From a virus: a DNA stretch of 43,539 bases. The notes beneath the pieces are model-generated. The model was not told where the DNA came from and did no database searches. It saw nothing but the letters and a program-made list of their open reading frames with translations. The position numbers were made by a program, and so were the translations under genes. The stretch covers positions 1 to 43,539 of IMG/VR virus record IMGVR_UViG_3300029787_000100, one strand, 5' to 3'. Below, piece after piece: positions 415-21,274 of this stretch; the stretch's first letter is position 1; each line of letters starts with the position of its first letter.

Positions 415-618
415 ATGGCAAAGGTACTAGTACAAACCTTCGGTGGAGTTGTAAAGACGATGGACGCAGACAATCCAGCAGGATTGGCTGAGAGTCTTGG
501 TATCTCTTTAGACAACACCACTATCAATGTTAATGCTAAGAAAGCAGAGCCAAATGCGTCATTAAGAGATGACGACTTTGTTGCTTTTGTTACTGATAAG
601 GTAACATCTGGCTGTTAG
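415..618 (+). CDS. Ubiquitin-like beta-grasp protein (ThiS/MoaD/Ubl type)
   Basis: A 67-aa protein. The start at 415 is chosen over the longer open frame from 331 because GGAGGAAA lies just upstream. The layout fits a beta-grasp Ubl: a first strand (VLVQTFGG), a helix-like stretch (NPAGLAESLG), strands around INVNAKK, then LRDDDFVAFVTDKVTSGC. The last part follows the ThiS/MoaD/Ubl pattern 'L.DGD.V.....v.GG'. The protein ends Gly66-Cys67 instead of Gly-Gly, so a one-residue trim would expose the usual C-terminal glycine. The family is used as a modifier or sulfur carrier activated by E1 enzymes. Downstream lie E2-like, JAB and E1-like genes, which strongly supports the Ubl call. What it is attached to is unknown. 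Confidence 0.75.
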   Translation: MAKVLVQTFGGVVKTMDADNPAGLAESLGISLDNTTINVNAKKAEPNASLRDDDFVAFVTDKVTSGC

Positions 619-721
619 TCATTAACCCGTGATTCGTTTAGTGTGGCGTGAAGCCAATAGTAATAAAACCGACTATGTGTAAGGACTCCGTCCAATAGAA
701 AGCCGGACCGTCACACTTACG
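619..721 (+). ncRNA. Intergenic structured region between Ubl and E2-like genes
   Basis: A gene-free stretch of 103 bases. AGTGTGGCG (640-648) can pair with CGTCACACT (709-717): nine pairs, one of them G-U, closing a loop of about 60 bases. Inside, ATAG (657-660) can pair with CTAT (672-675), and GGAC/GTCC (683-686/690-693) can form a small hairpin. A competing GGC/GCC hairpin (645-647/653-655) would break the outer stem. No uridine tract follows, so it is not an ordinary terminator. It could be a cis-regulatory element, an RNA processing site or a small RNA. Confidence 0.45.
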
Positions 722-748
722 ATGATTTCAATGTTAACAAGGAGAAAT

Positions 749-2338
749 ATGGAAACTATTTTCAAATCAGCCCGTGCTAAATTACTCGCATTAGCACATT
801 GGTTAGAATCAAATGCGAGATATCAAAATAATATGATGTCTAAAAATGAATCACTTGACTTAGCTACATATTATCTTGAAAAGTTAGATGTACATAGTGT
901 CCGTAGATTAAGATATTTTGACTCTGAGGAAGATTATCACGAGGATTACTATGAATTTCGTGTTAAAGTAGGTAAACCTAAGTTTAGAGGTACAGTAAAT
1001 TATACTTTACACGAACATAGTCTAGTGTTTAATACTAATAGACCTACTAATGTAAGATTAGCAGAGGATTACGAGTGGGAACCTTGGATTATGAATATTG
1101 CCCGTGCTCATTTAGGTACAAGTTACAAAGAAGCAGAGCGTTGGCATAGATATAACATCTATTCTGGTCACCCTCACATTAATGAATATGGCGAACCTTG
1201 TTTAGGTGGCTGGGCTAATGCTTGGTCATCTTGTATATCAAGTGGTAACATATCATCATTGATACCTGTTGCACAGAGTTTTCTAAATACGTGGACTTCA
1301 AATGACGCATACTTCAATATAAATGATTTATATCGTAGTTATAGAGTGTTACCATTGCATTTTAGAAAGCTTATGCCCTTACCAGAGTTTCAATCACATA
1401 CACATATGTGGTACAAATTCAGCAGGAACCAGAGTCGTAGGTTTAGTGCTTACAACTTTTGTAGATGGGTATCTCGAAACGAGAATGCTATATCTGCATT
1501 AGTATACAAAGAAGGTTTTGACTTTCGCAAATTGTATCATTGTTATAGTGGCGTTGTTGCAAACAAAGTCATAAAGCACGATACAGAATGCAGAATGAAA
1601 GACAAACTTTTCAATGGTATTCAAACTCTAAGGAGTATGCACCAAACAGCGTATAATAAAGTAAATGAGGCTTTACAGGGAGCACCTACTAAACTGGTTG
1701 AAGGTTTAGTTCAGGAAACAATGATAGATAAAGCTAGACTTTATATACCAGCACCTTGGTCAACTAACCCGTCTAATATGTGGTATTCTCAAACCTACAA
1801 TTTTGAAGATTATGTAAATAGTCAAATAGATAGGCAAAGAAGGTCTATGCGTAACAGAACAGATACACCAGTTACAATTCAAGACATAATGCACTTTAAT
1901 CACAATGCTCATAAAATGATTAGATACCAAAATCACACGTATCTAGAACCTCAACACATTAAAGAAGGCGTCATTTATTTTAATGTGAATGTAGAAGACA
2001 GGGATTACGCATTTGATATGTTTTACGCAACTAACAACATACTTACAGAATTTGGCTATGGTCAAAATATAATACGTTTTGATGTTGGTGGCGACAAATA
2101 CGCTGAGAGTATTATTGACGCATTATCTGCAATGGATAATATGAGACTTAACGCAAGTCAAATAGACGAATACACAAACAGAATAGCATACAAGGCTCTA
2201 TGTAACTACGAGTCAAATTTACAACTAGTAATAACTAAAAGGATACATAATGGGAAAGACAAATACAAACCCATCATTTCAGATAATGGTTTCGGAAATG
2301 ATTCACAACAAAGTCAGTTATCTCTTGAATCGTTTTAA
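749..2338 (+). CDS. E2-like (UBC-fold) ubiquitin-conjugating enzyme homologue
   Basis: A 529-aa protein. The ATG at 749 is preferred over upstream ATGs at 722 and 731 because AAGGAG precedes it at ideal spacing. The N-terminal ~190 residues carry the E2 signature: strand-like segments (YYEFRVKVG, GTVNYTLHEHSLVF), then YSGHPHINEYGEPCLGGW, which closely follows the E2 active-site pattern HPNI...G.ICL...W. The putative thioester-forming cysteine is Cys151 (codon 1199-1201), with a helix (SLIPVAQSFLNTW) after it as in UBC folds. Known E2s take the modifier from the E1 cysteine and pass it to a lysine. The remaining ~340 residues, basic and aromatic, match nothing I recognise and may choose the target. 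The 3' end overlaps the JAB gene by 89 bases. Similar E2/JAB/Ubl/ThiF groupings occur in PRTRC-type cassettes. Confidence 0.65.
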   Translation: METIFKSARAKLLALAHWLESNARYQNNMMSKNESLDLATYYLEKLDVHSVRRLRYFDSEEDYHEDYYEFRVKVGKPKFRGTVNYTLHEHSLVFNTNRPTNVRLAEDYEWEPWIMNIARAHLGTSYKEAERWHRYNIYSGHPHINEYGEPCLGGWANAWSSCISSGNISSLIPVAQSFLNTWTSNDAYFNINDLYRSYRVLPLHFRKLMPLPEFQSHTHMWYKFSRNQSRRFSAYNFCRWVSRNENAISALVYKEGFDFRKLYHCYSGVVANKVIKHDTECRMKDKLFNGIQTLRSMHQTAYNKVNEALQGAPTKLVEGLVQETMIDKARLYIPAPWSTNPSNMWYSQTYNFEDYVNSQIDRQRRSMRNRTDTPVTIQDIMHFNHNAHKMIRYQNHTYLEPQHIKEGVIYFNVNVEDRDYAFDMFYATNNILTEFGYGQNIIRFDVGGDKYAESIIDALSAMDNMRLNASQIDEYTNRIAYKALCNYESNLQLVITKRIHNGKDKYKPIISDNGFGNDSQQSQLSLESF

Positions 2339-3143
2339 GGATACTGAATGGTCAGGACCTGCGTGGTACAAGATACTAAAAGCAGAGAAAAACGGCTTTC
2401 CAACAAAAGTCGAACTAGCATACTTTAAACCAATACATCTAGGTCACGGTACAGAGACAGAAATTGACGGCGAAAAGCTCGGTAAACTATTACCAAAGCT
2501 TTACAAGAAAATGCCAGACCTTAAAAGTTGTTATTTAGGTTTAATTCATTCGCATCATACTATGGGTGCATTTCTTAGTGGAACAGATAAAGACACAGCC
2601 AGAGAACAAGCAACCAGCGATGGTTTCTTTTTCAGTACTGTTGTTGCTTCACAGAAAGACCCATATGCCTGTTGCTTTACTTATACCGATAGATATGGTT
2701 ATTCTAACCTAATTGACGGCGAAGTAAATGTCAATATGCCTAAAGTAAGTGTGCCTAAAGAATGGGTTGCAGAAGCTACTGCTATCAAGAAAGCCAAGAA
2801 AGAAGAGTCTAAAATCACATATATGAATGGTAATCAATTATCATTGGTAAATACACGTGGTTATTCTCACGGTGGATACGGAGCTTACTACGCTAGAGAC
2901 TGGGACGATACTCCAGACCCAACGCCGAAGGAACCTATTGATGAAAAAAAGACATCATCCTCTTGGGACAAGGAAACTGAGATACCCGAGAAGGAAATGG
3001 AAAGAATGGAAGACTTATCTCAGGAATTTATGGACGGAATGGTTACATACCACGAGTTCATAGAAAAGGTAAATAAAGAATGTCCAAATATTAATCCTTA
3101 CGATTATATGGATGGACGAGGAAACGGAGCTAAATACTATTGA
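2250..3143 (+). CDS. JAB/JAMM metallo-isopeptidase (deubiquitinase-like)
   Basis: A 297-aa protein starting at an ATG after AAAAGGA, inside the end of the E2-like gene. The JAMM zinc site is complete: Glu33 in EWSG, His100-Ser-His102, then Ser110 and Asp113, i.e. the exact H-x-H-x7-S-x2-D spacing. Members of this family cleave at the C-terminal glycine of ubiquitin-like proteins, either to mature the precursor or to remove it from targets. The neighbouring Ubl ends Gly-Cys, which suits a maturation role. Residues ~170-297 form a charged, low-complexity extension (Lys/Glu-rich, with a GGYGAYYARDWDD segment) outside the catalytic domain. Phage tail-assembly JAB proteins (lambda K type) are an alternative, but the early-operon context and the lack of an NlpC domain speak against it. 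Confidence 0.85.
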   Translation: MGKTNTNPSFQIMVSEMIHNKVSYLLNRFKDTEWSGPAWYKILKAEKNGFPTKVELAYFKPIHLGHGTETEIDGEKLGKLLPKLYKKMPDLKSCYLGLIHSHHTMGAFLSGTDKDTAREQATSDGFFFSTVVASQKDPYACCFTYTDRYGYSNLIDGEVNVNMPKVSVPKEWVAEATAIKKAKKEESKITYMNGNQLSLVNTRGYSHGGYGAYYARDWDDTPDPTPKEPIDEKKTSSSWDKETEIPEKEMERMEDLSQEFMDGMVTYHEFIEKVNKECPNINPYDYMDGRGNGAKYY

Positions 3144-3425
3144 TATTTATATTAATAAGTATTAACTTTAGTTTTATAGGGCACGGTTGCTCTGACTTTG
3201 GTTTAAGCCAACCCGGTACCAAGTCATACAGTGAATAAACACCAACGCCGTGCCCGTTCTTTTAAAGCAACAGCTTTTGCCACGATAGAACTATCGCAAG
3301 TAAGAGCTGTGAGAATCAGTAGGCTGTTGCATCTTTTCTCAGGGGGGCTACCTTCCTTTCCACAACTACCAACACAGCAATGGTAGTCCCCATTCATTTT
3401 AATAATAACATAAGGAGAACTGTTT
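3144..3425 (+). ncRNA. Three tandem stem-loop domains between JAB and the next gene
   Basis: A 282-base gap with no convincing ORF. Three long perfect or near-perfect arm pairs follow one another: GGGCACGG (3179-3186) with CCGTGCCC (3248-3255); GCAACAGC (3267-3274) with GCTGTTGC (3323-3330); and GGGGGCTACC (3343-3352) with GGTAGTCCCC (3382-3391), with one G-U pair. Sub-helices lie inside: GACTT(T)GG (3194-3201) with CCAAGTC (3219-3225), and a CGATA-GAAC-TATCG hairpin (3283-3296). A TTGATA -35-like hexamer sits at 3140-3145, but no good -10 follows. The region ends 23 bases before the AAGGAG of the next gene. A structured RNA or leader element is likely; its class is unknown. Confidence 0.5.
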
Positions 3426-3863
3426 ATGATGACAGTACCACAAAAGAAGTACTTTTGTAAACGCATTGATGAGATTACTAATCAAAAAGTAAGTGAACTC
3501 AAAGATGTCGAAGCAATGAGTAATAAAGCTATTGCCGCAATGGGTCTTGCTAACGGTAAAATACGTTATCCACAAGAAATATCTAAAATATGGGAAGCTA
3601 TTGATTTAATAATCAATGACGGTGAAGATATACGATGGGGTAGTAGTACTTTAGGAAGTTTAGTAATAGAACCAATGCTAATAGGATTTTCAGAGTTTAA
3701 ACACGAAATGACTACTAAAATAGCTAAAGAAAATTCAGAAATCGTTAACCAGCGTAACAAGCTTTACGAAGAAGCTACACGCATAAAAGACGTTGCTATG
3801 TTCGGTTCAGAAGAAGCCGCACACGCAATGTTAAAGGACTTTATTGAATGGCAACTAAAATAA
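3426..3863 (+). CDS. Unknown helical protein inside the Ubl cassette
   Basis: A 145-aa protein, start ATGATG after AAGGAG (either ATG is possible). It is predominantly helical by composition, with a heptad-like stretch around residues 90-120 (EFKHEMTTKIAKENSEIVNQ) suggesting a short coiled coil. There are no catalytic motifs and only one cysteine (Cys11). It lies between the JAB and E1-like genes and overlaps the E1-like start by 16 bases, so it is translationally coupled to it. By position it could be a partner, an adaptor or a target of the ubiquitin-like pathway. I do not recognise the family. Confidence 0.7.
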   Translation: MMTVPQKKYFCKRIDEITNQKVSELKDVEAMSNKAIAAMGLANGKIRYPQEISKIWEAIDLIINDGEDIRWGSSTLGSLVIEPMLIGFSEFKHEMTTKIAKENSEIVNQRNKLYEEATRIKDVAMFGSEEAAHAMLKDFIEWQLK

Positions 3864-4615
3864 AAACAAGATTCCTTAGAAATAAGGACCTTATCCCATT
3901 AGAGTCACTTAGTACTATTAGTGTAATAGGTCTAGGTGGCATAGGCTCGTTCTTAATACAAGGATTAGCTATGATGGGTTGGCACAAAGTTATCGGTTAT
4001 GACAGCGATGTCATAGAAGACCATAACCTAAGTACCACTTGCTACCCACTAGATGAAACTGGTAATGCAAAGAAAGATTCTGCACAAGGATTATTTTCTG
4101 CATACAGCGAAAACTGGCAGGAGTTTATACCAAAAGACAACTTTACGATAAACGATAAAGTAACACCGAAGATGATTGTATGCACGGATGATATGGAATC
4201 GAGACGAATGGTATTTAATAAGTGGTCAAAGAGTGACAACCCACATTTCTTTATAGATATGCGTATGGGTGCAACTAGTGTGGAGATGGTAACGTGCACT
4301 CCGTCTAACATAGAGGTCTATGATAAGCACTGGGTACCCACGCATACTATTCCACCAGCACCTTGCAGTATGAAACATACTGTATTCGCTACTAACCATA
4401 TTGTGTCCCTTGGTTTAGCTCAGATATATAATATTGTTGCTAATTTAGCATACTATGACTATATTTGGACCAGCCTGAACCCAAATATGGTCGAATTTGG
4501 GACATTAATAACTCCAAAAATACAGGAGGTATCAGTTGATACAAGTAAGAAAAGTGTCAACCGAGTGGACAGCAATGCCATCCGGTCTGACATACTTAAT
4601 CATAGGACAGCCTAA
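3848..4615 (+). CDS. E1/ThiF/MoeB-like Ubl-activating enzyme
   Basis: A 255-aa protein. A Rossmann nucleotide site GLGGIGS lies at residues 28-34, followed by the E1 adenylation signature: Asp52/Asp54 (YDSD), Asn60 (DHNL), Lys75/76, and CTDD (112-115) ahead of a paired Arg. The usual 'N-L-x-R-Q' is N-L-S-T-T here, so the common arginine is missing. A cysteine after a proline-rich segment, Cys173 (PPAPCSMKH), is the best candidate for the thioester-forming residue. Family members adenylate the C-terminal glycine of a Ubl with ATP and, in true E1s, pass it to an E2 cysteine. At 255 aa it is a minimal, single-domain E1. Its 3' end contains the ribosome-binding site and first 80 bases of the Sak4-like gene, which links the cassette to replication genes. 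Confidence 0.85.
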   Translation: MATKIKTRFLRNKDLIPLESLSTISVIGLGGIGSFLIQGLAMMGWHKVIGYDSDVIEDHNLSTTCYPLDETGNAKKDSAQGLFSAYSENWQEFIPKDNFTINDKVTPKMIVCTDDMESRRMVFNKWSKSDNPHFFIDMRMGATSVEMVTCTPSNIEVYDKHWVPTHTIPPAPCSMKHTVFATNHIVSLGLAQIYNIVANLAYYDYIWTSLNPNMVEFGTLITPKIQEVSVDTSKKSVNRVDSNAIRSDILNHRTA

Positions 4616-5396
4616 GACAGGTAAAACTACAGCTTGTGCTAGTTGGAGTCCTAAGGGCAGTGATGGTGTATTAATCATCGACACTGACTTAGGCTCTGAC
4701 TTTGTTAACAATGCTAACACAGTTACAGTTACAGGTCTTAACGCTCCTATTCGCCCCGTAATGCACGAGGGCAAACAAGTTACAAAAAACGGTGTAGCTG
4801 AAAATGAGGTAATCCCAGCAGAAGAACGTGGTTTTAACTATCGTTCTGGTGATGATAAAGGCAAACCAATGCCAGTATACTCTATGATAGAAGTATATAA
4901 TTGGATTGTAAAAGAATGGGATAACCTGCCGTACGATACCATAGTAATAGATACAATAGGCGAGGTTAACAGTTGGATAGAATCTGCTGTTATACACGAA
5001 CTAGGTATTACTGCTATGGGTGAAGGTCAATGGGGTGCAGATTGGGGCAAAGCTAGACGTAAAAATCTAGATGTCATCAAACGATTCCAAGACCTAATGA
5101 AAAAGAAAGGTGGTAACCTAGTACTAGTTGCTCATAGTAAGACGTCACAGATGCAAGATGGTAAAGTACAACTAGCACCAGAACTACCACGAGGACTAGG
5201 ATACTCATTAGCGGCAAAAGCTGACGTTATTGGTTATACTACAGCCAGTAAAGATGATGGTAAGTACTATATCTCATTTGAGGCGTATGACGAGAGAGTT
5301 GTCGGTTCACGACTAAAACCTCTTGCTCAGAAAATACTCCCATTAGAGTATAGTGCTATATCTAACGAAATCCTAAAGTATAAGGAGGATAAATGA
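4536..5396 (+). CDS. Sak4-like RecA-family single-strand annealing/recombination ATPase
   Basis: A 286-aa protein. The start is TTG at 4536, chosen because a strong AGGAGG (4524-4529) lies seven bases before it, within the E1-like gene. Walker A is GQPKTGKTT (residues 24-32), followed by VLIIDTDLG and a Walker B-like TIVIDTIGEV, then LVLVAHSKTS, the sensor strand of the RecA core. The layout matches the phage AAA_24/Sak4 group, short RecA/Rad51-like proteins that act with a phage SSB in recombination-dependent replication. The next gene is SSB-like and starts in an ATGA overlap with this stop, which supports the role. Confidence 0.8.
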   Translation: MIQVRKVSTEWTAMPSGLTYLIIGQPKTGKTTACASWSPKGSDGVLIIDTDLGSDFVNNANTVTVTGLNAPIRPVMHEGKQVTKNGVAENEVIPAEERGFNYRSGDDKGKPMPVYSMIEVYNWIVKEWDNLPYDTIVIDTIGEVNSWIESAVIHELGITAMGEGQWGADWGKARRKNLDVIKRFQDLMKKKGGNLVLVAHSKTSQMQDGKVQLAPELPRGLGYSLAAKADVIGYTTASKDDGKYYISFEAYDERVVGSRLKPLAQKILPLEYSAISNEILKYKEDK

Positions 5397-6019
5397 GTAC
5401 ACGTTTCAGACCAGCAGACCTAGACACATCCAGTGATGGAGGTTCTAAGTTTCTTGGATACGTACCTTGTGGTATTACCGGCTATGAAGACAGAAGTGAC
5501 CAGTTTGACTGGGCAGATGTCTACATTGTAATATCCCTATCACTAGAGGGTTCGCAATACCCTCAGGAAATGAGGCTTTCGGGCTCTTTTGATAGAGAAC
5601 CTAACGGTAATATCAAAACTTGCACAATATTAAAGAGACTTTATTGGTTCTTTGATACCATCGGCTTTGAAGGTGGTCCAAATGTGCAAGGCGAAATGGT
5701 AGATGAAAATGGCGAAAGCATTGACTTAGTCAATCACCTTGAGTCTAACTTCATTACCTCATCCCTTAATAACCCACGCAATAACTTTCTTGCATATCTG
5801 TACAAGGAGCAAGGTCGTAAAGACCCTAGCAAAACCTATACTACAGTTTTTCCAAAGTTAGTGGAGAATACACCTAGTGGTCGTAAGGACCTCGAAGGCT
5901 ACATAAATTTTATGAAGTCTAAGAATCTTATTAAAGAGGTGCAACAAGGGGTAGCAACAAACACAGTCGTTCAACCAAATAATGGTGTAATGACAGATTC
6001 GAGCGAACCACCGTTCTAA
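5393..6019 (+). CDS. Single-stranded DNA-binding-like protein
   Basis: A 208-aa protein, ATG overlapping the Sak4-like stop (ATGA) with AAGGAGGATAA before it. The strand-rich N-terminal 120 residues (YVIVISLSLEG, MRLSGSF, ITGYEDRSDQFDW) are compatible with an OB-fold. The C-terminus ends in a flexible stretch closing in SSEPPF, like the acidic/hydrophobic tip by which SSBs recruit partners. Phage Sak4 genes are commonly followed by such SSB-like proteins, here with a direct overlap. It would coat single-stranded DNA for the Sak4 ATPase and the primase-helicase. The call is partly by context, since sequence identity to canonical SSB is not visible. Confidence 0.6.
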   Translation: MSTRFRPADLDTSSDGGSKFLGYVPCGITGYEDRSDQFDWADVYIVISLSLEGSQYPQEMRLSGSFDREPNGNIKTCTILKRLYWFFDTIGFEGGPNVQGEMVDENGESIDLVNHLESNFITSSLNNPRNNFLAYLYKEQGRKDPSKTYTTVFPKLVENTPSGRKDLEGYINFMKSKNLIKEVQQGVATNTVVQPNNGVMTDSSEPPF

Positions 6020-7797
6020 TGTTTGTTGAAATGGCAATCGGGAGTCCCTCTAAACGAGGGGCTCTCGTTCCTATTGAGGATATGTGGGACGTTGTATATG
6101 AGCAAGGAAAAGAACAAGCTATATACAGGAGTGTTTATCTGTATGATGAGGAAGCTGTAAAGTTTATTAAAACAAACGGCACAGTTAAGAACTTTCTAGG
6201 AACAAGATACATTGATAGTGTACCTATTGACATAGATAGAGCACAAAATACAGACGATTATACATTGCAACAAACGCAGTTTATAGTTGACTATCTATTT
6301 AAGGAACTTAATATTAAAGAAGGTAACTACGCTATTTACTTTAGCGGCACTGGTTACCACATTGATATTAGTGCAGAGTGTTTTGGCTTTAAACCAAGTG
6401 AGAATTTACCTTACCAAGTTAAAGCTACTATGCTAAGCATCTTAAATGATATTAAAACAGACCCAGCAGTCTACACTAGGACAGCACTAATAAGAGTAGC
6501 ACACAGTTTAAATGTAAAGTCAGGTTTATATAAGATACCTTTAACCTTAGACGAATTATATACTAACCATACGAACATTGTTAAACTAGCTAATGATAGA
6601 AGATTAGACCACGGAGTAAGTGAACTCTGGGGTGAAGGTCATTTAGAAACTAGCATAGTAAACGAAGTTCCAGTAGTTAGGTCAATGCAAAAGGTAAACG
6701 AACCAAGTAATGTAGTGAATTGCGTACAATCTTTATATAATAAAGGACCTCAACAAGGTACACGTAATCATTCTTTACTACGTATGGCTTCGCATTTTAG
6801 ACGTAATGGTATACCAAGTGATGCTACAAAAGCAAGTTTGTTACATTGGAATAACAATCAACTTAATCCACAAATAGTTATAGATAAGGTCGAAAGTACA
6901 TATAACTATGGATACAAGTATGGTTGTAATGACGAATTGTTAGCAAGTTTGTGCAATCCAAAATGTGTATACTACAAAAACAAAGACTATCTCGTTGATA
7001 TCAAAACATCTGGAGATTTACAATCAGAATTAAATAGCAGACTAGAGTCAGATTTTACTGGTAAAATGTTACCACTTGCTCAAATGTTTGGCTTACACGA
7101 TAAAGATTGTAATGTTTATCCCGGTGAGTTGGTTACGATATTTGGACCTACAGGTGCTAATAAAACAGCACTAGCACAGAACATAGCTTTAGGTTATGAC
7201 TTTGCTAATGACGAAATCAATAGAGAATGGCAGATACCGACTTTGTTCTTATCTTTAGAATTAAGTGGTTGGTATATGCACAGACGTAATCAACAGATAG
7301 TTGCTGGAATGAGTAAAGACGATGTTACTGCAAATTATAAATATGTTGGAGATACTTATAACAAGTATTTAGAACACGTTAATATGCAAACAGTAGCACC
7401 TACTCCAGATATGATACAAAAGACTATACGTGACCTGCAACCTAACTTAGTTGTAGTAGACTATATAGATTTAGTAGAAACACCTAGAGGTATTAATGGA
7501 GAATATGAACAAGTAAGATACATATCTCATTTCTTATCTAATCTAGCTGTCAATCTGGACATTATTATCATACAAATAAGTCAAGTTGCTCGTGAGTATT
7601 CACGTAATCAAATACTTGACATATATGCAGGTAAAGGTAGTGGTGCTATAGAAAATGCAAGTCGTAAAGTGATTGGTATAAATGGCAAACAAGATTCTAC
7701 AGACAAAACTGTTTCGCTATTTAAAAACAGTGACGGTGACTTGTTTGATGTAGAACTAATGTGGACTCCATCATTTAGACTTAAAAGGAGAATATAA
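6019..7797 (+). CDS. AEP-type primase fused to DnaB-like replicative helicase
   Basis: A 592-aa protein coupled to the previous gene by TAATG. The N-terminal domain has archaeo-eukaryotic primase motifs: PIDID (D71, D73), YFSGTGYHIDI (S109-x3-Y-H114), and a third basic block RVAHSLNVKSGLYK (159-172). A Cys cluster (CNDELLASLCNPKC, ~303-316) could bind zinc. The C-terminal domain is a RecA-fold DnaB/gp4 helicase: Walker A GPTGANKT (376-383, where Asn replaces the usual Gly before Lys), LFLSLELSGWYMHRR, Walker B LVVVDYIDLV, IIIIQISQVAREY, and GKGSGAIENASRKV. It would unwind the fork and lay primers. The domain pairing differs from T7 gp4, whose primase is TOPRIM. Confidence 0.8.
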   Translation: MFVEMAIGSPSKRGALVPIEDMWDVVYEQGKEQAIYRSVYLYDEEAVKFIKTNGTVKNFLGTRYIDSVPIDIDRAQNTDDYTLQQTQFIVDYLFKELNIKEGNYAIYFSGTGYHIDISAECFGFKPSENLPYQVKATMLSILNDIKTDPAVYTRTALIRVAHSLNVKSGLYKIPLTLDELYTNHTNIVKLANDRRLDHGVSELWGEGHLETSIVNEVPVVRSMQKVNEPSNVVNCVQSLYNKGPQQGTRNHSLLRMASHFRRNGIPSDATKASLLHWNNNQLNPQIVIDKVESTYNYGYKYGCNDELLASLCNPKCVYYKNKDYLVDIKTSGDLQSELNSRLESDFTGKMLPLAQMFGLHDKDCNVYPGELVTIFGPTGANKTALAQNIALGYDFANDEINREWQIPTLFLSLELSGWYMHRRNQQIVAGMSKDDVTANYKYVGDTYNKYLEHVNMQTVAPTPDMIQKTIRDLQPNLVVVDYIDLVETPRGINGEYEQVRYISHFLSNLAVNLDIIIIQISQVAREYSRNQILDIYAGKGSGAIENASRKVIGINGKQDSTDKTVSLFKNSDGDLFDVELMWTPSFRLKRRI

Positions 7798-12382: not shown

Positions 12383-12536
12383 TTAGACTTGGTAGTATTT
12401 TTGTTAAGTCAGTACCAGTACTAGTAGTCTTGACCATATTTTTTTCACGTTCTTTATCTTGACAAGCTTTACATAAATATCCGTCATCATTAGTAAGTGG
12501 TTTATCACAATCAACACAATGATTAGGTATCGGCAT
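12351..12536 (-). CDS. Small zinc-finger protein (CxxC pair)
   Basis: A 61-aa protein coupled to the end of the giant gene by TAATG. The first 27 residues contain two CxxC knuckles (CVDCDKPL ... YLCKACQDKE), a compact treble-clef/DksA-type zinc site; the rest is polar. DksA/TraR-like small phage proteins bind RNA polymerase, an interesting possibility beside a putative RNA polymerase gene. The link is only inference. Confidence 0.6.
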   Translation of the reverse strand: MPIPNHCVDCDKPLTNDDGYLCKACQDKEREKNMVKTTSTGTDLTKILPSLNEKQNSSRRY

Positions 12537-15500
12537 TAGTATATAAACCTTCCTCGCATAGCCTCTGGCTTCTCTTGTTTAATAAGCTGTCCTGCTTGCA
12601 TTAAAGGCATCCCTGTAAACTTAGTTACAGTATAAAACGGATTCTCTATAATGCCGCCGGGTCCAACTACGTCTCTAATTATTCTACCAAATGGTGGTAT
12701 AGTCCATAGATAATAGTCAGTTAATCTACTAGAGTCACCACTTACTAACCACTTAAACATAGGTGGTAATAATCTTAAAGATGGTGGAGTAATAGCTTGT
12801 ACAGGACCAAGTGGTGAACCAAAGAAAGCTCTATCTCTTTCCTTTTCATCTCCCATTAAATAATCAGCCGTGTCTTGAAACCAATTCCAAGGAGCTGGAA
12901 GTGAACTTTCAAATAGACTATACATAAAGAGGTTAGATAATGACATCATCATTAAATCAGCTATTGCTAGTCTTTTAAAAGAATCATACTCAGGTGTACC
13001 CTCACGGTAACCTGCAAGTTCTGCTCGTCTTATTACGTCATTTCTAAAACGAACACTGTTCCAGCTCCATAATTGGAAACGAGAAAACACCCTACCCAGA
13101 GTGCTATTTGTAAACAAAGGTCTAAAAGGTGCAGAGTATAAAAACTGCGTACCTTTAACGCCTTTCTTAGCGTAATTAATTAAAAACGGACTATCATAAT
13201 CAGCAATAGCTCCACCAAATTGTTCTTTAGCTTGTAGGTAATGAGCCATAAACGAGTCACGTCTTAAAATTCTTTCAGGTACACGCATAAATGAACTCGC
13301 TACTGCAAAAGCTCTATCTGTTATACCATTTTTTCTAGCAAGTTGTGCTAGACTTTCATCACTGTAGTTAGGGTCTCTTTTTATTTTAGCTACAGCTTGT
13401 CTAATAAAATCTTGATTCTTTTTACCTTTTAACTGTGGGTTTAACCCTGCTTCGTGTACTAAAAATTCCTCTATAATACCTTTAGATTGTAACCAGCGTT
13501 CAACGTCTTTCATATTTTCCCATCTAGGATTAACGTTAGTCTTTAAGTAATCAAAGTTTCTGGCGTTCTTTAAGTTATTATATCCAGTACTTACCCAAGT
13601 GTGTACTGTACCACCATACAAATTTGCAATAGAACTTTTTGGATGTGCAAGTAGCGATGCTAACTGCCATTTAGCTTCTAAAGCACCCCAGCCTTGTAGC
13701 TGGTTATATTCTATACCACTTAATTCATCAATAGATTTCTCATCTAAATTAAATTTTCTTAACTCATTTCTATTTAATCCAAGTTTCTTACCTATATAAT
13801 CAATTCTTTTCTTAGCTTGAGAGTCAGCTAACCATTTATAAGCAGTCCCTTTTATTTTCATTTGAGGGTCATTCATAACGTGTTCAGGTATATGAGTAGG
13901 ATAACCCATTGCACTTTGTGTGTATAGTTTAAAGAAATTCATCCAAGAGTTAGTAAGGTTCCCATCTTTTGTCTTCTTATAAAAAGAATTGTTAAAGTTA
14001 AACATAGATGTTCTTGCAGATAATTGCATAGCTTGTTTATAAAATGTATTTATACTGTTTTTCATATACATTTCGTAAGCTTCTGGTGTTAATTCCCAAC
14101 CACCTATGTGTGCATCTCTACTAAATTGATTACCTACACGTTTTAAATCATTAGTAAGTATTGACTTAGCTTTGGCTTCTTTATTGTTAGCCATATTAGT
14201 AAGCACGTCTTGCATAACATCGAAGTTGTCACCCATTTCATCCTTAGTCATAAAATCACCAGTCATCTTTTTAAACTGATGTATAATTTTCTTTGATTCT
14301 TTTGCTATTTCTTCCTTACTTAACTCAGGGTCATTAACAATTTTATCTAACGCACTCTTTAATTTATTCTTTGCAGATTTCCTATTAAAAGACATATGTG
14401 GAAAGTAATATTCTGGTCCTAAATCACCTGTTTGGTCAAATGGTGTAACCTCTAAACTTTTACGTGCTTCTTGTAATCTATCAAAGTTTCTTAACCTTCC
14501 CGGTGTCTGGCTAATAAGTATACGTTTAACTATCTGCCTCATACCATCTATGCCAAGCTCCTCTATAGGTATAGTTTTGTTTTCTTGCACAGTTTTCATA
14601 ATATATTTATGGAACTCACGGCGTAGGTTATCTAAACCAGTCCAAGTAACATCACCATTAGTGTTTTCTGCTATCTTTAACCACTTATTACTAGCGTCTG
14701 TACCAGTTAACCATTTTCTAGTCTTAATATTATAATTAGTGATTATGTTATCTATACTATTTACTACAGCTTCACCAGTCTTTTGAATGTTACCTTCTTT
14801 TGTAGGTACTATATAATTTTTATTTTTTAATACATTCCATTGCTTTTCTAATGCGTTCCAGTTTTCTTGATAAACCATTTCTTTTGATGTCAGGTCGCTA
14901 GAGCTTTCTTTATATTTCTTTCTAAGTTTATCTTTCATATATCTTAGCTCTCGTTTAGCAACGGCTATTTCAAATAAAACATCACCATCTTTTAAAGCCG
15001 ACACATATGGTCGCAATTCGTCACGCCATAGAGAACTTTCATCTTCATATTTTTGCATAGATAGTTCTTGTGTTCTATGTGCAAGTTCTTGTATGGTTCC
15101 TATTACACTAGTAGGTCTTACAGTTCTAGCGTTTTCAAATGTGTTACCAAGTTTATCTTTGTATGGACCAACATCGTCAACCCATTCCATCATAGCTGGG
15201 TTACGCATTAAATCTCTATCAATAGCTTTTGGAAACATCCAGTAATAAGCTTTCTTTATTGCAGGATTTTTATCTTTACCAGTCATATAATCCATAGTGT
15301 TACGCCACCAAGTACCATCACGCATATCTGCAAATATTCTATCTAGTTGTTGCAAGTCTACTTTGTTAGCCTCGTTAATATTCTTTTTAAATATACCTCT
15401 AAAGAATCCATTTAGATTTATAACATCTAAGTTATGGTAGTGTTCTAAGTGTTCTGTTAAACTATCATAAAGCCTACGCATTTCTGGGTCTTTAACCTTA

Positions 15501-18500
15501 CCTTCAAATAAACCAGTAAACGGCTTAACCTCATCTAAATACTTTTTACTTTTAGCGTCTATAAGATTAGCATCAATAAACTCATTACGTATATCATTAC
15601 CTTCTGCATCTTTAAATGTAGTGATAGGCTCAGTTCCTTCTGCCTCACGCATTAGTTGTTCTTTCTGTGGCTCTGTTAATTTTACTCTACTCTTTTTAAT
15701 TAACTGCTCATAGTTAGTAAAGAACTTTTTTAAGTTTGTATCAGATATTTCTTTAGAGTTAACGCCTTCTCTAATAAGTGATGTGTTAACAGCGTTTCTT
15801 TTTAGCTGTTCAAAAGCACCTTGCATTTCAGGTTGTTTAAGCCCTACACTATCTTCAAGTTTTTGAAGAGTTTCTAATGCCTTTCTATCACCTTTACTAT
15901 AAGTACCTATGTATAACATATCAAATAAACTTTTTTCCTGAGGCGACAACTCTTGTTTGTATCTTCTTATTAGAGCATCTGTTCTAACCCTATCATTCAT
16001 AGCACTAGCTTTATCATTAAAACCAAATTGGTCACGAGCTTTATCTATTTCTTGTGCTAGTGTTCTATTTAACTTTACTTCTTTTAAACCTTGAGGTCCT
16101 TCTTCAAACTTAACAAACTCTAAGTCAGACATTCTGCGTAGTGCATCATCCATATCTCTACGTTTTTGTGCCATATATACAGTTTTAGATTTTATCTCAT
16201 CAACTTTAGAATGTATATCACTTATTCTTTTTGGGTCCATACCTTCTGCAACTTCACTTATACTTTTTAAAGAAGCCATATCGCTCAAATCGTTCACTAG
16301 AAAATCTTCAGCTTTTAACATTAAATGTTCAAGATAAAATTCTCTATTGTCTTTCTTTGTAAAGTCTACATTTCTAAACTTATATGGAAGTTTGCCAAAG
16401 CCTTCTGATATAAATTCTTCAAATCTTTTTTCACTACCAGCTATTCTAGACCTGCCGTCTCTAGTGTACAGCTCACCATCAAGAACCTTTTGTATAAACC
16501 TGCCTTTTTCAGTCTTTAGAGTACTTCTACCCATAGCATCCTTTAGCCATTCGTTTTCTCTAACTAAATCAGCGTGGTCAAAGTATATCTTATTTATAAC
16601 AGCTTCGTTTGCGTGTTTAAACATATTGTCTGACCAGTTTATACCCTTAATAGACTCTGCTAACTGTGGTAAAAACGTATTTCTGGATGACTCTGGCATA
16701 AAATCAAAAGCTCTAGCACCTTGTTGTATTTCAGAGTAAGTATATCTTCTACCTTCTAAATGATTTCTACCATACAATACGCTATTAGCTTCTAAAAATT
16801 TCTTATGTAAACTTTTATTTTTTAGGTAATCTCTTTGACCCTTATTAATCATAGCAGTCTCAAACTTATTGATACTAAGCTTACCCTTACTGCTAACATC
16901 AAATATTTTATAATTAAATAAAGTGTCTAACATCTTAGGCTCAAACAATTCACCACGTAAACCAGCTTCGTCCATAGGGTCAGAGCCTAACGCTATTGCC
17001 GCTCTAGACATTTCTCTAAATCTTTGTAAGTCTACATCATTTTTCTTTACTTCAAATATTATTCTACGTTTACTAGGCTTACCATCCTTAGTATATATAT
17101 AAGGTACACTAAATTTATCTTTAGTTAATATTACCTCATCTTTTTCATTTACTTTCTTGCCATTTTTATTATAAGTAAGTACAACTGGCTCAGAAGTAAC
17201 ATCACTTGCACCTCGAATAGAATTGTAAGCTCCTAGTATAGCCATACGTCTAGTAACAGCTACGCCTAGCATATCTCTACCAGTATATGCACCCCTACTC
17301 ATAAACTCTCTCCAGTATGGAGAGTACTGTGCAGTAGGATGCTTAGATTTTTTCATTGTTACTTCATCTCTTACGGCTAACTGCTCACCATAAGTCTGTT
17401 TAGTAAACGGGTCTATTTCATTCTTATTGTCACCTTCTCTAGTGCCACCATCTTTTAAGTATTCATCTTTAGCACTTTCGTACATTTGACGCCAGGATTT
17501 TTTAAAGCCACTAGACTCACCACCAAAGAATACAAATGCTTTATCCCCATCTAAGTCAGCACCACCTAACGCTCTCATACTTCTAGGATGCAGTAGACTA
17601 CCAAAACCTTTTATACCTGTAAACCCAGCAAGTTCTAATCCGTGTGCACCACTTATTGAATCCATAGGTACACGCATTACTACAGCAGTAAGTATATCAT
17701 TTATTTCATTCTTAAAATTCTCATAACCTTTGTAGTTATTTTCTTTTATTTCAAACAATTTGCCTAGTGTCATACGTTGCTTACCAAACATAGCGTCTTT
17801 TATTTGCAACTCTTTAAAACCATCATCTAAGAAGAATACATCTTGACCTTCTTTTCTTGATAGTATTTCTGTTTTTTTGTTAGGTAATTGTAATCCAACT
17901 TCCCAAGGTCTCATTCTAGATGACGCACTATTGTCTATTTGTGGTCTAGTAAGTCTTTGAACTACAAAGTTTCTAAGAGACTGCATCCTATAGTCACGAG
18001 AAAACTTATGTAAGTACGCACCAATACTTCCGTCAGGAAACAATCTACCCATACGTTCTACAACACCTTCGTAGTCAGCAAAGCTTTTCTTGTATTCCAT
18101 CTCTGCTTCTCTTGATATCTCACCTTCACTAGCTATGTTCTCTAAGAACTCATTGTTTATTCTTAGTATTTGTTCATATAACTTTTGTGACAACTTAGAT
18201 TCTTTAGGGTTTCTAAGTATATTAAACACTTCATTAAGTGGTATCTGGTCTATATTATCTACTACTTTTTGTATACTCTCATCACTACGTGATTTTGTAT
18301 ATTCTTTTAGTATATCCATACCCTCTTCAGTACCTCTAACTGCTCTGTCAGAGAGACTTTTATACATATCTTCCATAACCTTAGGGTCAATAGCTTTGTG
18401 TCCGTATTGACTTAATACAGAATACATCTGTTTAGGAACTTGTTGTCTCTTTAAAAACTTCTCACTTGTTATTTCTGACATAATAGTTCTAAAACTATTT

Positions 18501-21274
18501 ATAGGTACATCAAATAACTCACCATTAAATGTTATATCATATTTTTTGTTAGCAAAGTCTGGTTCATATCCAAGCTCACCACGTTTACTTATCCGTTTAC
18601 CTGCTTGTTTTACAGCAGAGTCAGGCATTAACATATGTATACCACGTGACTCCATCATTTGTTGTAGCTCTGGACTTGCTATGTGTATAGCATACTTACC
18701 TAACAATGCACCTTCTTGACTATTAGGTGCTACTATAAAAGACTTGTTCATCTTACCACTAGTAGGTAAACCTTTATCCATATTTAAAGCATCAACAACT
18801 TCATTCCTAGCAATGATAGCACCATCAGATATTTCTGCATATTTTTCTGCACCATCAGTTAATTTTATATTCTTACCATCAGCTTCACTAAACAACCCTA
18901 CTTTAAAATTAGGGTCCTTACTAGAAATATCCCGTTTGCCGTTGTTTCTTATGTAATCTATAACGTACTTAGGGTTAGCAGATAAACCCGTGTTAAACCA
19001 TATCTGTTGCCTCTTATTAAACCCTTTGGGGTCATTTATAAAACCTTTACCTAGTACATCGCTTATACCTTGCTTTAAATCTTTTGTTCTTGTACTAAAA
19101 CCATTCATAGTAAGGTCATATAAAACATTAGACGCATACATTTTATCGTAAACTTCTTTAGCGTTCTTTACATCTTTGTGTTGTTCTACCCACTTATCTC
19201 TAGCTTCGTTATAAGCTTCTCTATATCCATCTACTTTATTTCTACGCATTTCAGTAAACAACTGACGTTTTACAGTTTTATGTATAGTTTTATTCTTTGA
19301 TATACTAGGATGTTTCTTTATAAAGTACATCTTTTTATTATCACCCTTACCACCATAGTAATAATAATCTTCTTTCCACATAGTCTCTATAAGTTTTTTA
19401 CGAACAGCTTTCATATGCTTAGATGATTCTAAGTCAGCCATTTCTTTTAATTCCTTATAGTCCATTTCTTTATCTTTGAACTTCTTTTGTATCTCAACTA
19501 ACTTTTGACGTGATATATTTTGTTCTGCTCTTGCAAGGTCGTGTTCTTTCCCTCGGTATACTATATGGTCCAGAACTCGAAAGAACTGGTCCTCTGGTGG
19601 TAGTTCTTTACCTCGATTAACTCTTTTATACTCTGCTCTATATCCATCTTCGATAATAAGTGGTTCCTGTGACAAGTTCTTGGTGTTGCCTAGACTGTTG
19701 GTTTTTTCTTCAAGTACCCTAACTTTGTCATCAACGACTTCAATTTGCTCAACCCACTTTTGTCTTCTGTTTGTTTCAGCCCAGCGTCTCCACCAGCCTT
19801 TTTCATTTTCAGTAAGTGATTGCCCATACGCCTTTTCAATGTGCGTAATGATTTTTTGCTCTGCTCCCGGTATTGGTTTTGCATCTTCATTTTGTAGTTT
19901 TCTCCATTCTTTATAGATGTCGTTAGACCTATCTATTCTTTCTACTGTGGTTAGCTTTGGAAACACTTGGTCTATGTATCCATTCTTACCCATCAGTCTA
20001 CCGGGTACTTCCTGTATTTCTGCAATGTGCATATCTAAATCCTGTGGGTCTTCATACCTAGGGTCTTTTATATATGCTTCTTTATATTCTTTTAATTCTT
20101 TTGGAGATAAAGACTTAGAACTTACCTCTCCTGTAACGGGGTCTACATCATAAGCTTTGCCATACTCATTAGCAATATCTTCTATCTGTTTTAAATTCAT
20201 TCCTCTATTACTTAATATATCAAAGAGTACATACGATGATTCACTTGGTCCATCAGTACTGTATTGGAATGTTTCTTGAAAATCTCTGCTTACTATCTTT
20301 TTCATTTGACTAGTAAGACCATCCCATTTAGGATTCATCTCTGGGTCAGGACCATACTTTTCCTTAATTGACTCTGCAAGGTATTGTCTACTTGTCCTTG
20401 TTTGAAATGGTATTTCACCAAAGCCAAAGAAAGCCCCCATTGCGTATTGGTATACCTGTTCTTCTGTTGTTGCACCTTGCAACGTAGAGGGCAGTCCTTG
20501 GAAAGCCATACCTGCTGTAGTACGCATAGCTAAATCTAACTTTTGCCCAGCTTCTAACTTACTAAAGTCTGGTCTTCCATTAGGTTTCATTTGTCCAGCA
20601 TTAATTCTTTTACCAAAACCGGGCATATTGCCTATGCCTCTAAACACACCACCTGCAACAGCACCAAACCCTGCCGCCTTAAACATTTCATCTACTCCGT
20701 GAGTCCAACTAGATATAGCACTAGCAGTACCTAAATGAAAAGCTCCTTGTGCTAAGTCAGGTACAATGCCACTTGTTGCCCACTTAGGCAGGTCACCTAA
20801 CATAGGCTCCACAGCTCTACCTACTCTGCCTTGTATAGCATTAGCAAATAACATAGGAACAGATTTCCCTCTAATACCTTCGGCTACTCTTGAGTAACTT
20901 TTTAATATACCAAGTTTTCTTAATGTTCTACCACCGGGTAGATAGCCTACAAACCCTGCAAGGTGTCCTAGGTTTCTTGATATACCTTCCCAAGTATCTT
21001 CTGGTTCTTTACCAACGCCTAGTTTTTCTGGTGGTAAGGTAGTAAACCCTTCCATAAAACCAGCACCAGCTTGTTTAAGCATACGTGTTACAAAGGCATC
21101 TTGATGTTTTTTGTTGCGAGTAAATGGTATTCTATAATAAGAAGCGTGGTCTTCTAATACCTGTATGTCGTCATCCCTATTGTCAAACGCATTAGGAAAT
21201 CTTGAGTATTGGTCTATTAGTCCTCTTATATTTTGTTCATCGAACTTAGGAGAGAACTGTTTAGGTTCAGCCAT
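12536..21274 (-). CDS. Giant virion protein, candidate packaged RNA polymerase
   Basis: A 2912-aa protein, start ATG at 21274 after AGGGA. Near the middle, at residues 1240-1244 (17543-17557), lies GGADLDGDKAFVFF. This matches the Mg-binding NADFDGD element of the RNA polymerase beta-prime double-psi barrel. The ~45 residues before it also follow the beta-prime order: R-x-P (MRVPMDS), a hydrophobic GL.L.G stretch, and then LHPRSMRALGG just ahead of the motif, as in 'LHPLVCAAYNADFDGD'. Single-chain polymerases of the YonO/crAss-phage type carry D.DGD. The ends are different: N-terminal Gly-rich hydrophobic helices (~100-240) and a hydrophobic C-terminus (~2700-2912) suited to membrane passage. 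It sits among internal virion proteins, so it is probably packaged and injected. Confidence 0.6.
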   Translation of the reverse strand: MAEPKQFSPKFDEQNIRGLIDQYSRFPNAFDNRDDDIQVLEDHASYYRIPFTRNKKHQDAFVTRMLKQAGAGFMEGFTTLPPEKLGVGKEPEDTWEGISRNLGHLAGFVGYLPGGRTLRKLGILKSYSRVAEGIRGKSVPMLFANAIQGRVGRAVEPMLGDLPKWATSGIVPDLAQGAFHLGTASAISSWTHGVDEMFKAAGFGAVAGGVFRGIGNMPGFGKRINAGQMKPNGRPDFSKLEAGQKLDLAMRTTAGMAFQGLPSTLQGATTEEQVYQYAMGAFFGFGEIPFQTRTSRQYLAESIKEKYGPDPEMNPKWDGLTSQMKKIVSRDFQETFQYSTDGPSESSYVLFDILSNRGMNLKQIEDIANEYGKAYDVDPVTGEVSSKSLSPKELKEYKEAYIKDPRYEDPQDLDMHIAEIQEVPGRLMGKNGYIDQVFPKLTTVERIDRSNDIYKEWRKLQNEDAKPIPGAEQKIITHIEKAYGQSLTENEKGWWRRWAETNRRQKWVEQIEVVDDKVRVLEEKTNSLGNTKNLSQEPLIIEDGYRAEYKRVNRGKELPPEDQFFRVLDHIVYRGKEHDLARAEQNISRQKLVEIQKKFKDKEMDYKELKEMADLESSKHMKAVRKKLIETMWKEDYYYYGGKGDNKKMYFIKKHPSISKNKTIHKTVKRQLFTEMRRNKVDGYREAYNEARDKWVEQHKDVKNAKEVYDKMYASNVLYDLTMNGFSTRTKDLKQGISDVLGKGFINDPKGFNKRQQIWFNTGLSANPKYVIDYIRNNGKRDISSKDPNFKVGLFSEADGKNIKLTDGAEKYAEISDGAIIARNEVVDALNMDKGLPTSGKMNKSFIVAPNSQEGALLGKYAIHIASPELQQMMESRGIHMLMPDSAVKQAGKRISKRGELGYEPDFANKKYDITFNGELFDVPINSFRTIMSEITSEKFLKRQQVPKQMYSVLSQYGHKAIDPKVMEDMYKSLSDRAVRGTEEGMDILKEYTKSRSDESIQKVVDNIDQIPLNEVFNILRNPKESKLSQKLYEQILRINNEFLENIASEGEISREAEMEYKKSFADYEGVVERMGRLFPDGSIGAYLHKFSRDYRMQSLRNFVVQRLTRPQIDNSASSRMRPWEVGLQLPNKKTEILSRKEGQDVFFLDDGFKELQIKDAMFGKQRMTLGKLFEIKENNYKGYENFKNEINDILTAVVMRVPMDSISGAHGLELAGFTGIKGFGSLLHPRSMRALGGADLDGDKAFVFFGGESSGFKKSWRQMYESAKDEYLKDGGTREGDNKNEIDPFTKQTYGEQLAVRDEVTMKKSKHPTAQYSPYWREFMSRGAYTGRDMLGVAVTRRMAILGAYNSIRGASDVTSEPVVLTYNKNGKKVNEKDEVILTKDKFSVPYIYTKDGKPSKRRIIFEVKKNDVDLQRFREMSRAAIALGSDPMDEAGLRGELFEPKMLDTLFNYKIFDVSSKGKLSINKFETAMINKGQRDYLKNKSLHKKFLEANSVLYGRNHLEGRRYTYSEIQQGARAFDFMPESSRNTFLPQLAESIKGINWSDNMFKHANEAVINKIYFDHADLVRENEWLKDAMGRSTLKTEKGRFIQKVLDGELYTRDGRSRIAGSEKRFEEFISEGFGKLPYKFRNVDFTKKDNREFYLEHLMLKAEDFLVNDLSDMASLKSISEVAEGMDPKRISDIHSKVDEIKSKTVYMAQKRRDMDDALRRMSDLEFVKFEEGPQGLKEVKLNRTLAQEIDKARDQFGFNDKASAMNDRVRTDALIRRYKQELSPQEKSLFDMLYIGTYSKGDRKALETLQKLEDSVGLKQPEMQGAFEQLKRNAVNTSLIREGVNSKEISDTNLKKFFTNYEQLIKKSRVKLTEPQKEQLMREAEGTEPITTFKDAEGNDIRNEFIDANLIDAKSKKYLDEVKPFTGLFEGKVKDPEMRRLYDSLTEHLEHYHNLDVINLNGFFRGIFKKNINEANKVDLQQLDRIFADMRDGTWWRNTMDYMTGKDKNPAIKKAYYWMFPKAIDRDLMRNPAMMEWVDDVGPYKDKLGNTFENARTVRPTSVIGTIQELAHRTQELSMQKYEDESSLWRDELRPYVSALKDGDVLFEIAVAKRELRYMKDKLRKKYKESSSDLTSKEMVYQENWNALEKQWNVLKNKNYIVPTKEGNIQKTGEAVVNSIDNIITNYNIKTRKWLTGTDASNKWLKIAENTNGDVTWTGLDNLRREFHKYIMKTVQENKTIPIEELGIDGMRQIVKRILISQTPGRLRNFDRLQEARKSLEVTPFDQTGDLGPEYYFPHMSFNRKSAKNKLKSALDKIVNDPELSKEEIAKESKKIIHQFKKMTGDFMTKDEMGDNFDVMQDVLTNMANNKEAKAKSILTNDLKRVGNQFSRDAHIGGWELTPEAYEMYMKNSINTFYKQAMQLSARTSMFNFNNSFYKKTKDGNLTNSWMNFFKLYTQSAMGYPTHIPEHVMNDPQMKIKGTAYKWLADSQAKKRIDYIGKKLGLNRNELRKFNLDEKSIDELSGIEYNQLQGWGALEAKWQLASLLAHPKSSIANLYGGTVHTWVSTGYNNLKNARNFDYLKTNVNPRWENMKDVERWLQSKGIIEEFLVHEAGLNPQLKGKKNQDFIRQAVAKIKRDPNYSDESLAQLARKNGITDRAFAVASSFMRVPERILRRDSFMAHYLQAKEQFGGAIADYDSPFLINYAKKGVKGTQFLYSAPFRPLFTNSTLGRVFSRFQLWSWNSVRFRNDVIRRAELAGYREGTPEYDSFKRLAIADLMMMSLSNLFMYSLFESSLPAPWNWFQDTADYLMGDEKERDRAFFGSPLGPVQAITPPSLRLLPPMFKWLVSGDSSRLTDYYLWTIPPFGRIIRDVVGPGGIIENPFYTVTKFTGMPLMQAGQLIKQEKPEAMRGRFIY

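Follow-up and report, generated by a model that had tools for sequence, protein, structure and literature searches.

The viral DNA analyzed here, a 43.5-kb IMG/VR record of a marine phage (IMGVR_UViG_3300029787_000100, positions 1 to 43,539; hereafter the window), carries at positions 415-4615 of its + strand a four-gene cassette that we predict to encode a complete phage system for conjugating and deconjugating a ubiquitin-like protein (Ubl). This prediction, to which we assign a probability of roughly 0.7, draws on the gene set, the modeled folds and the invariant residues of a Ubl, an E2-like protein, a JAB/JAMM protease and an E1-like adenylyltransferase. Bacterial Ubl conjugation has been described chiefly in defense against viruses. 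All four proteins are listed as "unknown function" in PHROGs, and elsewhere their relatives bear annotations like "thiamine biosynthesis protein", "metalloprotease" or "hypothetical". Our search of open-licence papers turned up no description of a phage with an E1+E2+Ubl+JAB set, and none in which such a kit belongs to the core of a bacterial virus.

An earlier note, made from the sequence alone, had described a phage-encoded Ubl conjugation cassette of five genes at this place, in one + strand block connected to replication genes. We confirmed the positions of five open reading frames (ORFs) at 415-4615, all on the + strand, with a Sak4-like gene following that of the E1. Relatives were collected by E1, E2 and JAB searches of IMG/VR (481 JAB relatives, 80 of them kept). 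All 88 related viral loci with room for the set contain all four core genes in the order Ubl-E2-JAB-E1, and the catalytic residues are invariant even between lineages so distant that their E2s are just 13-16% identical to that of the window, so the gene set is not a chance arrangement. The proposed cassette is thereby borne out, as is the earlier argument that a full set, its genes kept together with conserved active sites, speaks for conjugation. The count of five is not: since protein X (145 amino acids, 3426-3863, + strand), which matches no family, is missing from many relatives' cassettes, we rejected it as a member and regard it as an optional neighbor of a four-gene kit. Two gaps inside the cassette lack coding sequence, at 619-748 (130 nt) and 3144-3425 (282 nt), and neither has an Rfam match at gathering thresholds.

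The Ubl gene (415-618, + strand) encodes a 67-amino-acid modifier precursor ending in SGC. An AlphaFold model built on an alignment of relatives shows a beta-beta-alpha-beta-beta-beta arrangement (predicted local distance difference test score, pLDDT, 89), and its best structural matches in VIA are TtuB (Z 9.1), SAMP2 bound to a JAMM protease (8.2) and MoaD (8.2), followed by ubiquitin-like folds. By sequence, the protein has no significant family match in Pfam, PHROGs, NCBIfam or PADLOC (Pfam ThiS is weak, at 0.098) and no match among GenBank phages. The beta-grasp reading of the earlier note is thus upheld in the model, while its Gly-Cys as the functional end is rejected, because the terminal Cys is unconserved and only the SG is kept: S65 and G66 are invariant in 21 diverse Ubls, and the residues after them vary from none to about 20 (for example C, LA, S, SK, LTA, SCS, A, LSQ or longer). 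The crAss-like phages carry the same site in two arrangements. In crAss001 gp79, KIKSG joins a beta-grasp-like domain to a fused C-terminal domain, and in cr106_1 a stand-alone 92-amino-acid Ubl ends in KKIKSGKF, with the C-terminal domain in a separate ORF; an HNH endonuclease gene lies between the two in cr106_1 (680-1883 of that locus). Because the invariant SG precedes either a variable tail or a fused domain, trimming after the Gly by the neighboring JAMM protease is the simplest reading; in the window, the predicted cut would fall after Gly66 in the KVTSG end (598-612, + strand), removing Cys67. A precedent exists in BilC, which trims BilA after its C-terminal Gly (PMC11354881).

The E2-like gene (749-2338, + strand) encodes 529 amino acids, modeled by AlphaFold as a UBC domain over residues ~5-220, a helical C-terminal part and a tail at 501-529, the only disordered segment (mean pLDDT 87). 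The ORF holds HPHINEYGEPCLGG, including Cys151, and the putative active site HPHINEYGEPCLG lies at 1169-1207 (+ strand). Searches of Pfam, PHROGs, NCBIfam and PADLOC gave nothing significant for this protein, and a sequence search of GenBank phages gave no match. When the model was re-aligned with VIA, UBC/UEV folds made up nearly all of the first 30 rows, aligned over residues ~5-220 and headed by UBE2W (rank 1, Z 6.1), TSG101-UEV, UbcH10 and UbcH5b. The best PDB match of the E2 sequence profile is again UBE2W (E 0.25), with HPHVYSNGHICL of UBE2W aligned to HPHisedGePCLG, an alignment that places Cys151 at the catalytic Cys; matches of a wide E2 profile to ribosomal L35/uL29 in the PDB were dismissed as chance. 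H141, H143, C151 and G153 are invariant in 22 diverse E2s; HPH itself is invariant in E2s of the window lineage and is replaced by HSH in crAss-like phages. The core around the active site (139-198) has 69% mean identity and the C-terminal part 27-31%. From the predicted fold, whose matches are of middling strength, and this short motif, we assign the protein as a UBC-fold E2 with Cys151 as its probable catalytic residue, as the earlier note had proposed.

The JAB/JAMM protease (297 amino acids, 2250-3143, + strand) scores just below the Pfam Prok-JAB cut-off (2.6e-5, 24.5 bits against 25), and its relative in locus L144 scores above it (28.1 bits). The JAMM motif HSHHTMGAFLSGTD (2547-2588, + strand) is conserved among JAB relatives, and E33, H100, H102, S110 and D113 are invariant over 12 diverse JABs. 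The E1-like protein (255 amino acids, 3848-4615, + strand) carries GLGGIGS and a single ThiF match, above the Pfam cut-off (1.3e-10). Profile searches relate it to PaaA, UBA3, UBA5, MccB and, weakly, Cap2. Invariant across diverse relatives are its glycine loop, D52, D54, N60, K75, D114, R119 and C173, the last within C[ST]xK and a candidate thioester cysteine (codon 4364-4366, + strand). The JAMM site and the minimal E1 with its Cys173 had both been recognized from the letters of the window, and both stand; the structural comparisons suggested at that time, a beta-grasp for the Ubl and a UBC fold for the E2, came out in favor at the level of predicted models.

The JAB and E2 genes overlap by 89 nt (2250-2338) in two different frames, and a similar overlap occurs in marine lineages and in crAss001, FpV4, Dulem 41, bajarodcaudo 1 and cr128_1. 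In the Flavobacterium phage FPSV-S29 (locus L150, 4740-4985), the JAB gene is split exactly at the JAMM codons by a group I intron (RF00028, E 2.5e-9), and the Flavobacterium phage Fpv1 (L151) has the same layout; an antisense ORF that goes with this intron looks LAGLIDADG-like to us. The JAB gene of FpV4 is uninterrupted. Group I introns favor such sites in conserved genes.

The kit extends well beyond close relatives of the window. Identity to L007 is 100% for the Ubl (15 nucleotide changes, no amino acid change), 86% for the E1, 66% for the JAB and 34% for the E2, and few proteins of the block are as well conserved as the Ubl and E1. Searches by tblastn with E1 and JAB reached crAss001, DAC15/17 and other Steigviridae, Flavobacterium phages and two metagenomic phages, and the order Ubl-E2-JAB-E1 recurs in cultured crAss001, FpV4 (a Flavobacterium phage), DAC17, Dulem 41, bajarodcaudo 1 and cr128_1. 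In crAss001 the set comprises gp79, gp78, gp77 and gp76, gp79 being the Ubl and gp77 the JAB. The cassettes of these relatives adjoin DNA primase or toprim and uracil-DNA glycosylase genes, and their E2s carry H[SP]H...CxG. Kinship of marine and crAss E2s is based on the operon slot, the JAB overlap, the HxH...CxG motif and a Foldseek match of the marine E2 model in BFVD. That match is a 435-amino-acid cr128_1 protein at rank 7 (E 0.69), identified by length and organism, 435 amino acids being the length of the coding sequence in the cr128_1 E2 slot; the rank-2 match has 420 amino acids, the length of the FpV4 E2. We also saw E1 relatives in three Xanthomonas phages and one Erwinia phage of a phage collection. 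One relative (L040/L099, IMGVR_UViG_2811995091_000024) seems, judged by its number only, to come from an IMG genome record and could reveal a host.

Across 84,980 bacterial and archaeal species genomes, the E1 profile found no relatives and the JAB profile only one partial, unrelated match, and a plasmid search gave three weak E1 matches. Because bacterial genomes yielded no E1 and no related JAB, the cassette looks viral in distribution. A Polyangiaceae contig from a metagenome-assembled genome (JALWFW010000228.1, L148, 4890-6576), which may be mis-binned, has a ThiF-like ORF followed by a JAB of a different kind (HSHNNMGVFFSGTD), with no Ubl or E2 by the cassette profiles.

The cascade that we infer, in its catalysis, conjugation, clamp binding and targets alike, would begin with the JAB trimming the Ubl precursor after its SG. 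The ThiF-type E1 would then adenylate Gly66 using ATP and pass the Ubl through its Cys173 to Cys151 of the E2, which would attach it to amino groups on target proteins; the JAB could take it off again. Several points weigh against this reading of the four genes. Conjugation, through E1 and E2 thioesters, is a prediction from genes and models. A Foldseek search of the PDB with the whole 529-amino-acid model returned nothing at E 0.001, its top rows being helical proteins. The UBC matches lie at VIA Z 4-6, middling on the scale of the tool, and gain weight because the sequence profile independently gives UBE2W with Cys151 on the catalytic Cys. A profile-profile comparison of marine and crAss E2s was not significant. 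Finally, minimal E1s with a crossover-loop Cys are known from sulfur-transfer pathways too.

That last point leads to a different role for the cassette, in which the Ubl would be a thiocarboxylate carrier like ThiS, MoaD or TtuB, serving with a ThiF-like enzyme in tRNA thiolation or cofactor synthesis, and the 529-amino-acid protein would not be an E2. The closest structures to the Ubl (TtuB, SAMP2, MoaD, ThiS), the single ThiF domain of the E1 with its crossover-loop Cys and the GenBank label "thiamine biosynthesis protein" on the E1 all agree with such a pathway, and some carriers do both jobs. We nonetheless judge it very unlikely. NCBIfam thiamine models fall far under cut-off (for the adenylyltransferase model TIGR02356, 28.2 bits on the E1 against 275.25), the cassette contains no thiolase or rhodanese, and a dedicated protein of predicted UBC fold with an invariant HPH...C is linked to it in every locus with room; relatives in NCBIfam and PADLOC suggest E1-E2 systems equally. 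An attack on, or mimicry of, host Ubl immunity (CBASS Cap2/Cap3, Bil or Bub), for example by tagging defense proteins or by the JAB stripping host conjugates, is unlikely as well. The enzyme classes are the same as in those antiviral systems, Cap3-like JABs remove Cap2 conjugates, and outside its core the E2 changes rapidly (27-31% identity), as target recognition in an arms race would produce. Yet a JAB alone would suffice for stripping, while no locus with room for the set has lost any of the four genes; the cassette keeps its place among replication genes even in phages that are very distantly related, and the conservation of Ubl and E1 within the block is unlike that of typical anti-defense genes.

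If the kit conjugates, it would most likely do so at the replisome, because it is welded to replication genes and because its eraser, and probably its writer, has a disordered clamp-like motif. The replication block starts with a Sak4-like single-stranded DNA annealing ATPase (4575-5396 within an ORF from 4536, + strand; phrog_124, 8.5e-29), and a gene of this kind comes after E1 in 128 of 132 loci. It is followed by a putative single-stranded DNA-binding (SSB)-like protein (208 amino acids, 5393-6019, + strand), recognized by its sequence with an acidic tail DSSEPPF and by its conserved position, and by a primase/DnaB-type helicase (6019-7797, + strand; phrog_19, 4.4e-29; phrog_16345, 1.6e-18); in the lineages listed, these two genes usually come after the Sak4-like gene. 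Twelve related records (42-55 kb, possibly incomplete) contained no Pol A, Pol III alpha, Pol B or clamp, with positive controls matched. Outside the block, a single 2912-amino-acid ORF without a Pfam match occupies 12536-21274 of the - strand, the strand of the structural genes.

Candidate clamp-binding motifs occur in both the JAB and the E2. The published clamp consensus is QL[SD]LF or QxxLF, in which positions 4-5 may vary (PMC12309361, PMC4549789). The JAB linker of the window holds QLSLV (2835-2849, + strand), and a relaxed motif, Q-x-x-hydrophobic-aromatic/hydrophobic, is present in 28 of 45 diverse JAB linkers, compared with 6.1 +/- 2.2 in shuffled and 6 in reversed linkers; its forms include QISAF, QLSMY, QGSMF, QTHMF, QRSMF and, in crAss001, QGELPF. 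At the C terminus of the E2, the window has QLSLESF (2315-2335, + strand), and other E2s end in QLSAF, QSELF, QTDLF, QAQLF, QVPLSF and similar. We downgraded the E2-tail motif from strong evidence, since it lies inside the overlap with the JAB gene, whose reading frame alone could produce it, which leaves it uninformative in most lineages. Only where this null is below 1% does the motif argue for selection, and there it is present in 8 of 16 lineages, perhaps four independent clades. Docking on a clamp is a serious lead from these motifs, better supported for the eraser (JAB) than for the writer (E2).

Other results count against a role at the clamp. The strict form QxxLF occurs in none of the 45 JAB linkers, and the JABs of FpV4, DAC17, Dulem 41 and cr128_1 lack the motif. 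In codon simulations that keep the JAB protein, the JAB frame yields the E2-tail motif at 10-90% in most lineages. The possible incompleteness of the virus records limits the polymerase and clamp negative, and PF03175 falls outside it, as its positive control gave no match. Tagging of host or virion proteins unrelated to replication (in takeover, degradation or assembly), with a neighborhood that reflects only early expression, is a possibility that we hold at low confidence: phage early genes cluster together, and the clamp-like motifs could dock another partner. Set against it, the context is kept across marine phages, Steigviridae and Fipvunavirus, and the motif fits the published clamp consensus class (PMC12309361, PMC4549789). 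We propose action at the replisome or clamp tentatively, as somewhat short of an even chance; the phage's own replisome had been among the targets guessed at in the earlier note, and the new evidence, although predictive, favors it. The ubiquitination or SUMOylation of PCNA would be the analogy, with the clamp or polymerase of the host, or replication proteins of the phage, as possible targets. A more specific version, in which E2 and JAB dock on the host sliding clamp and reversibly modify it or clamp-bound replication proteins, as a phage counterpart of those PCNA modifications and possibly through N-terminal, UBE2W-like (HPH) conjugation, is conceivable and more speculative.

Known systems share parts of this design. 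The bacterial antiviral operon BilABCD (Bil, ISG15-like) has the same four components (Ubl, E2, JAMM protease and E1), and its JAMM protease opens the C-terminal Gly (PMC11354881). BilA, however, has two tandem Ubl domains, BilB has a CEHH motif after its Cys, and BilD combines a Cys domain with two adenylation domains (PMC11354881), whereas the phage Ubl is one beta-grasp of 67 amino acids, the phage E2 has HPH before Cys151 and CLGGWANAWSSCIS after it, with no CEHH, and the phage E1 is a single domain of 255 amino acids; the phage kit is also carried in a replication block, unlike the antiviral Bil operon. We suggest by analogy that the kit operates as a Bil-type cascade does, although it is not a member of Bil. 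PRTRC cassettes and operon class 6d of Iyer 2006 likewise encode Ubl, JAB, E1 and E2 as separate proteins and are carried by mobile elements, but the E2 of class 6d is without the classical His (PMC1779556) where the phage E2 has HPH, and NCBIfam PRTRC models score below cut-off (ThiF, 26.3 against 144.75 bits; PRTRC A, 11.6 against 101.8). The likeness to PRTRC and Bil that had been pointed out from the sequence does not amount to membership, as the defining features place the kit in neither class.

CBASS type II likewise combines E1 and E2 activity with a JAB protease (Cap2/Cap3), but Cap2 is an E1-E2 fusion that conjugates a CD-NTase, while the phage kit has separate E1 and E2 genes and a dedicated Ubl; no CD-NTase was named among the families of the scanned neighboring genes. 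Lambda/T1 TapI and TapK are likewise a phage-encoded Ubl with a conserved Gly and a JAB (PMC1779556), yet they lie in a tail module (NlpC/P60) with no E1 or E2, whereas the kit described here is complete and lies in a replication module. Eukaryotic UBE2W shares HPH, not HPN, before the catalytic Cys, and is a small single-domain protein, where the phage E2 has ~300 further residues. Archaeal SAMP/UbaA/JAMM1 and Thermus TtuB likewise pair a ThiS-like modifier with a single-domain E1 and a JAMM protease, but these systems have no E2 and double as sulfur carriers.

In tailed phages, among them cultured crAss-like phages of the human gut, our analysis indicates that a complete, apparently functional Ubl set is retained as a core neighbor of the replication genes. 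If the predicted conjugation is real, the targets of crAss001 in Bacteroides intestinalis would carry a Ser-Gly remnant (+144.05 Da) after digestion with trypsin, and phages would represent a large unnoticed reservoir of ubiquitin-like signaling, relevant to its origin.

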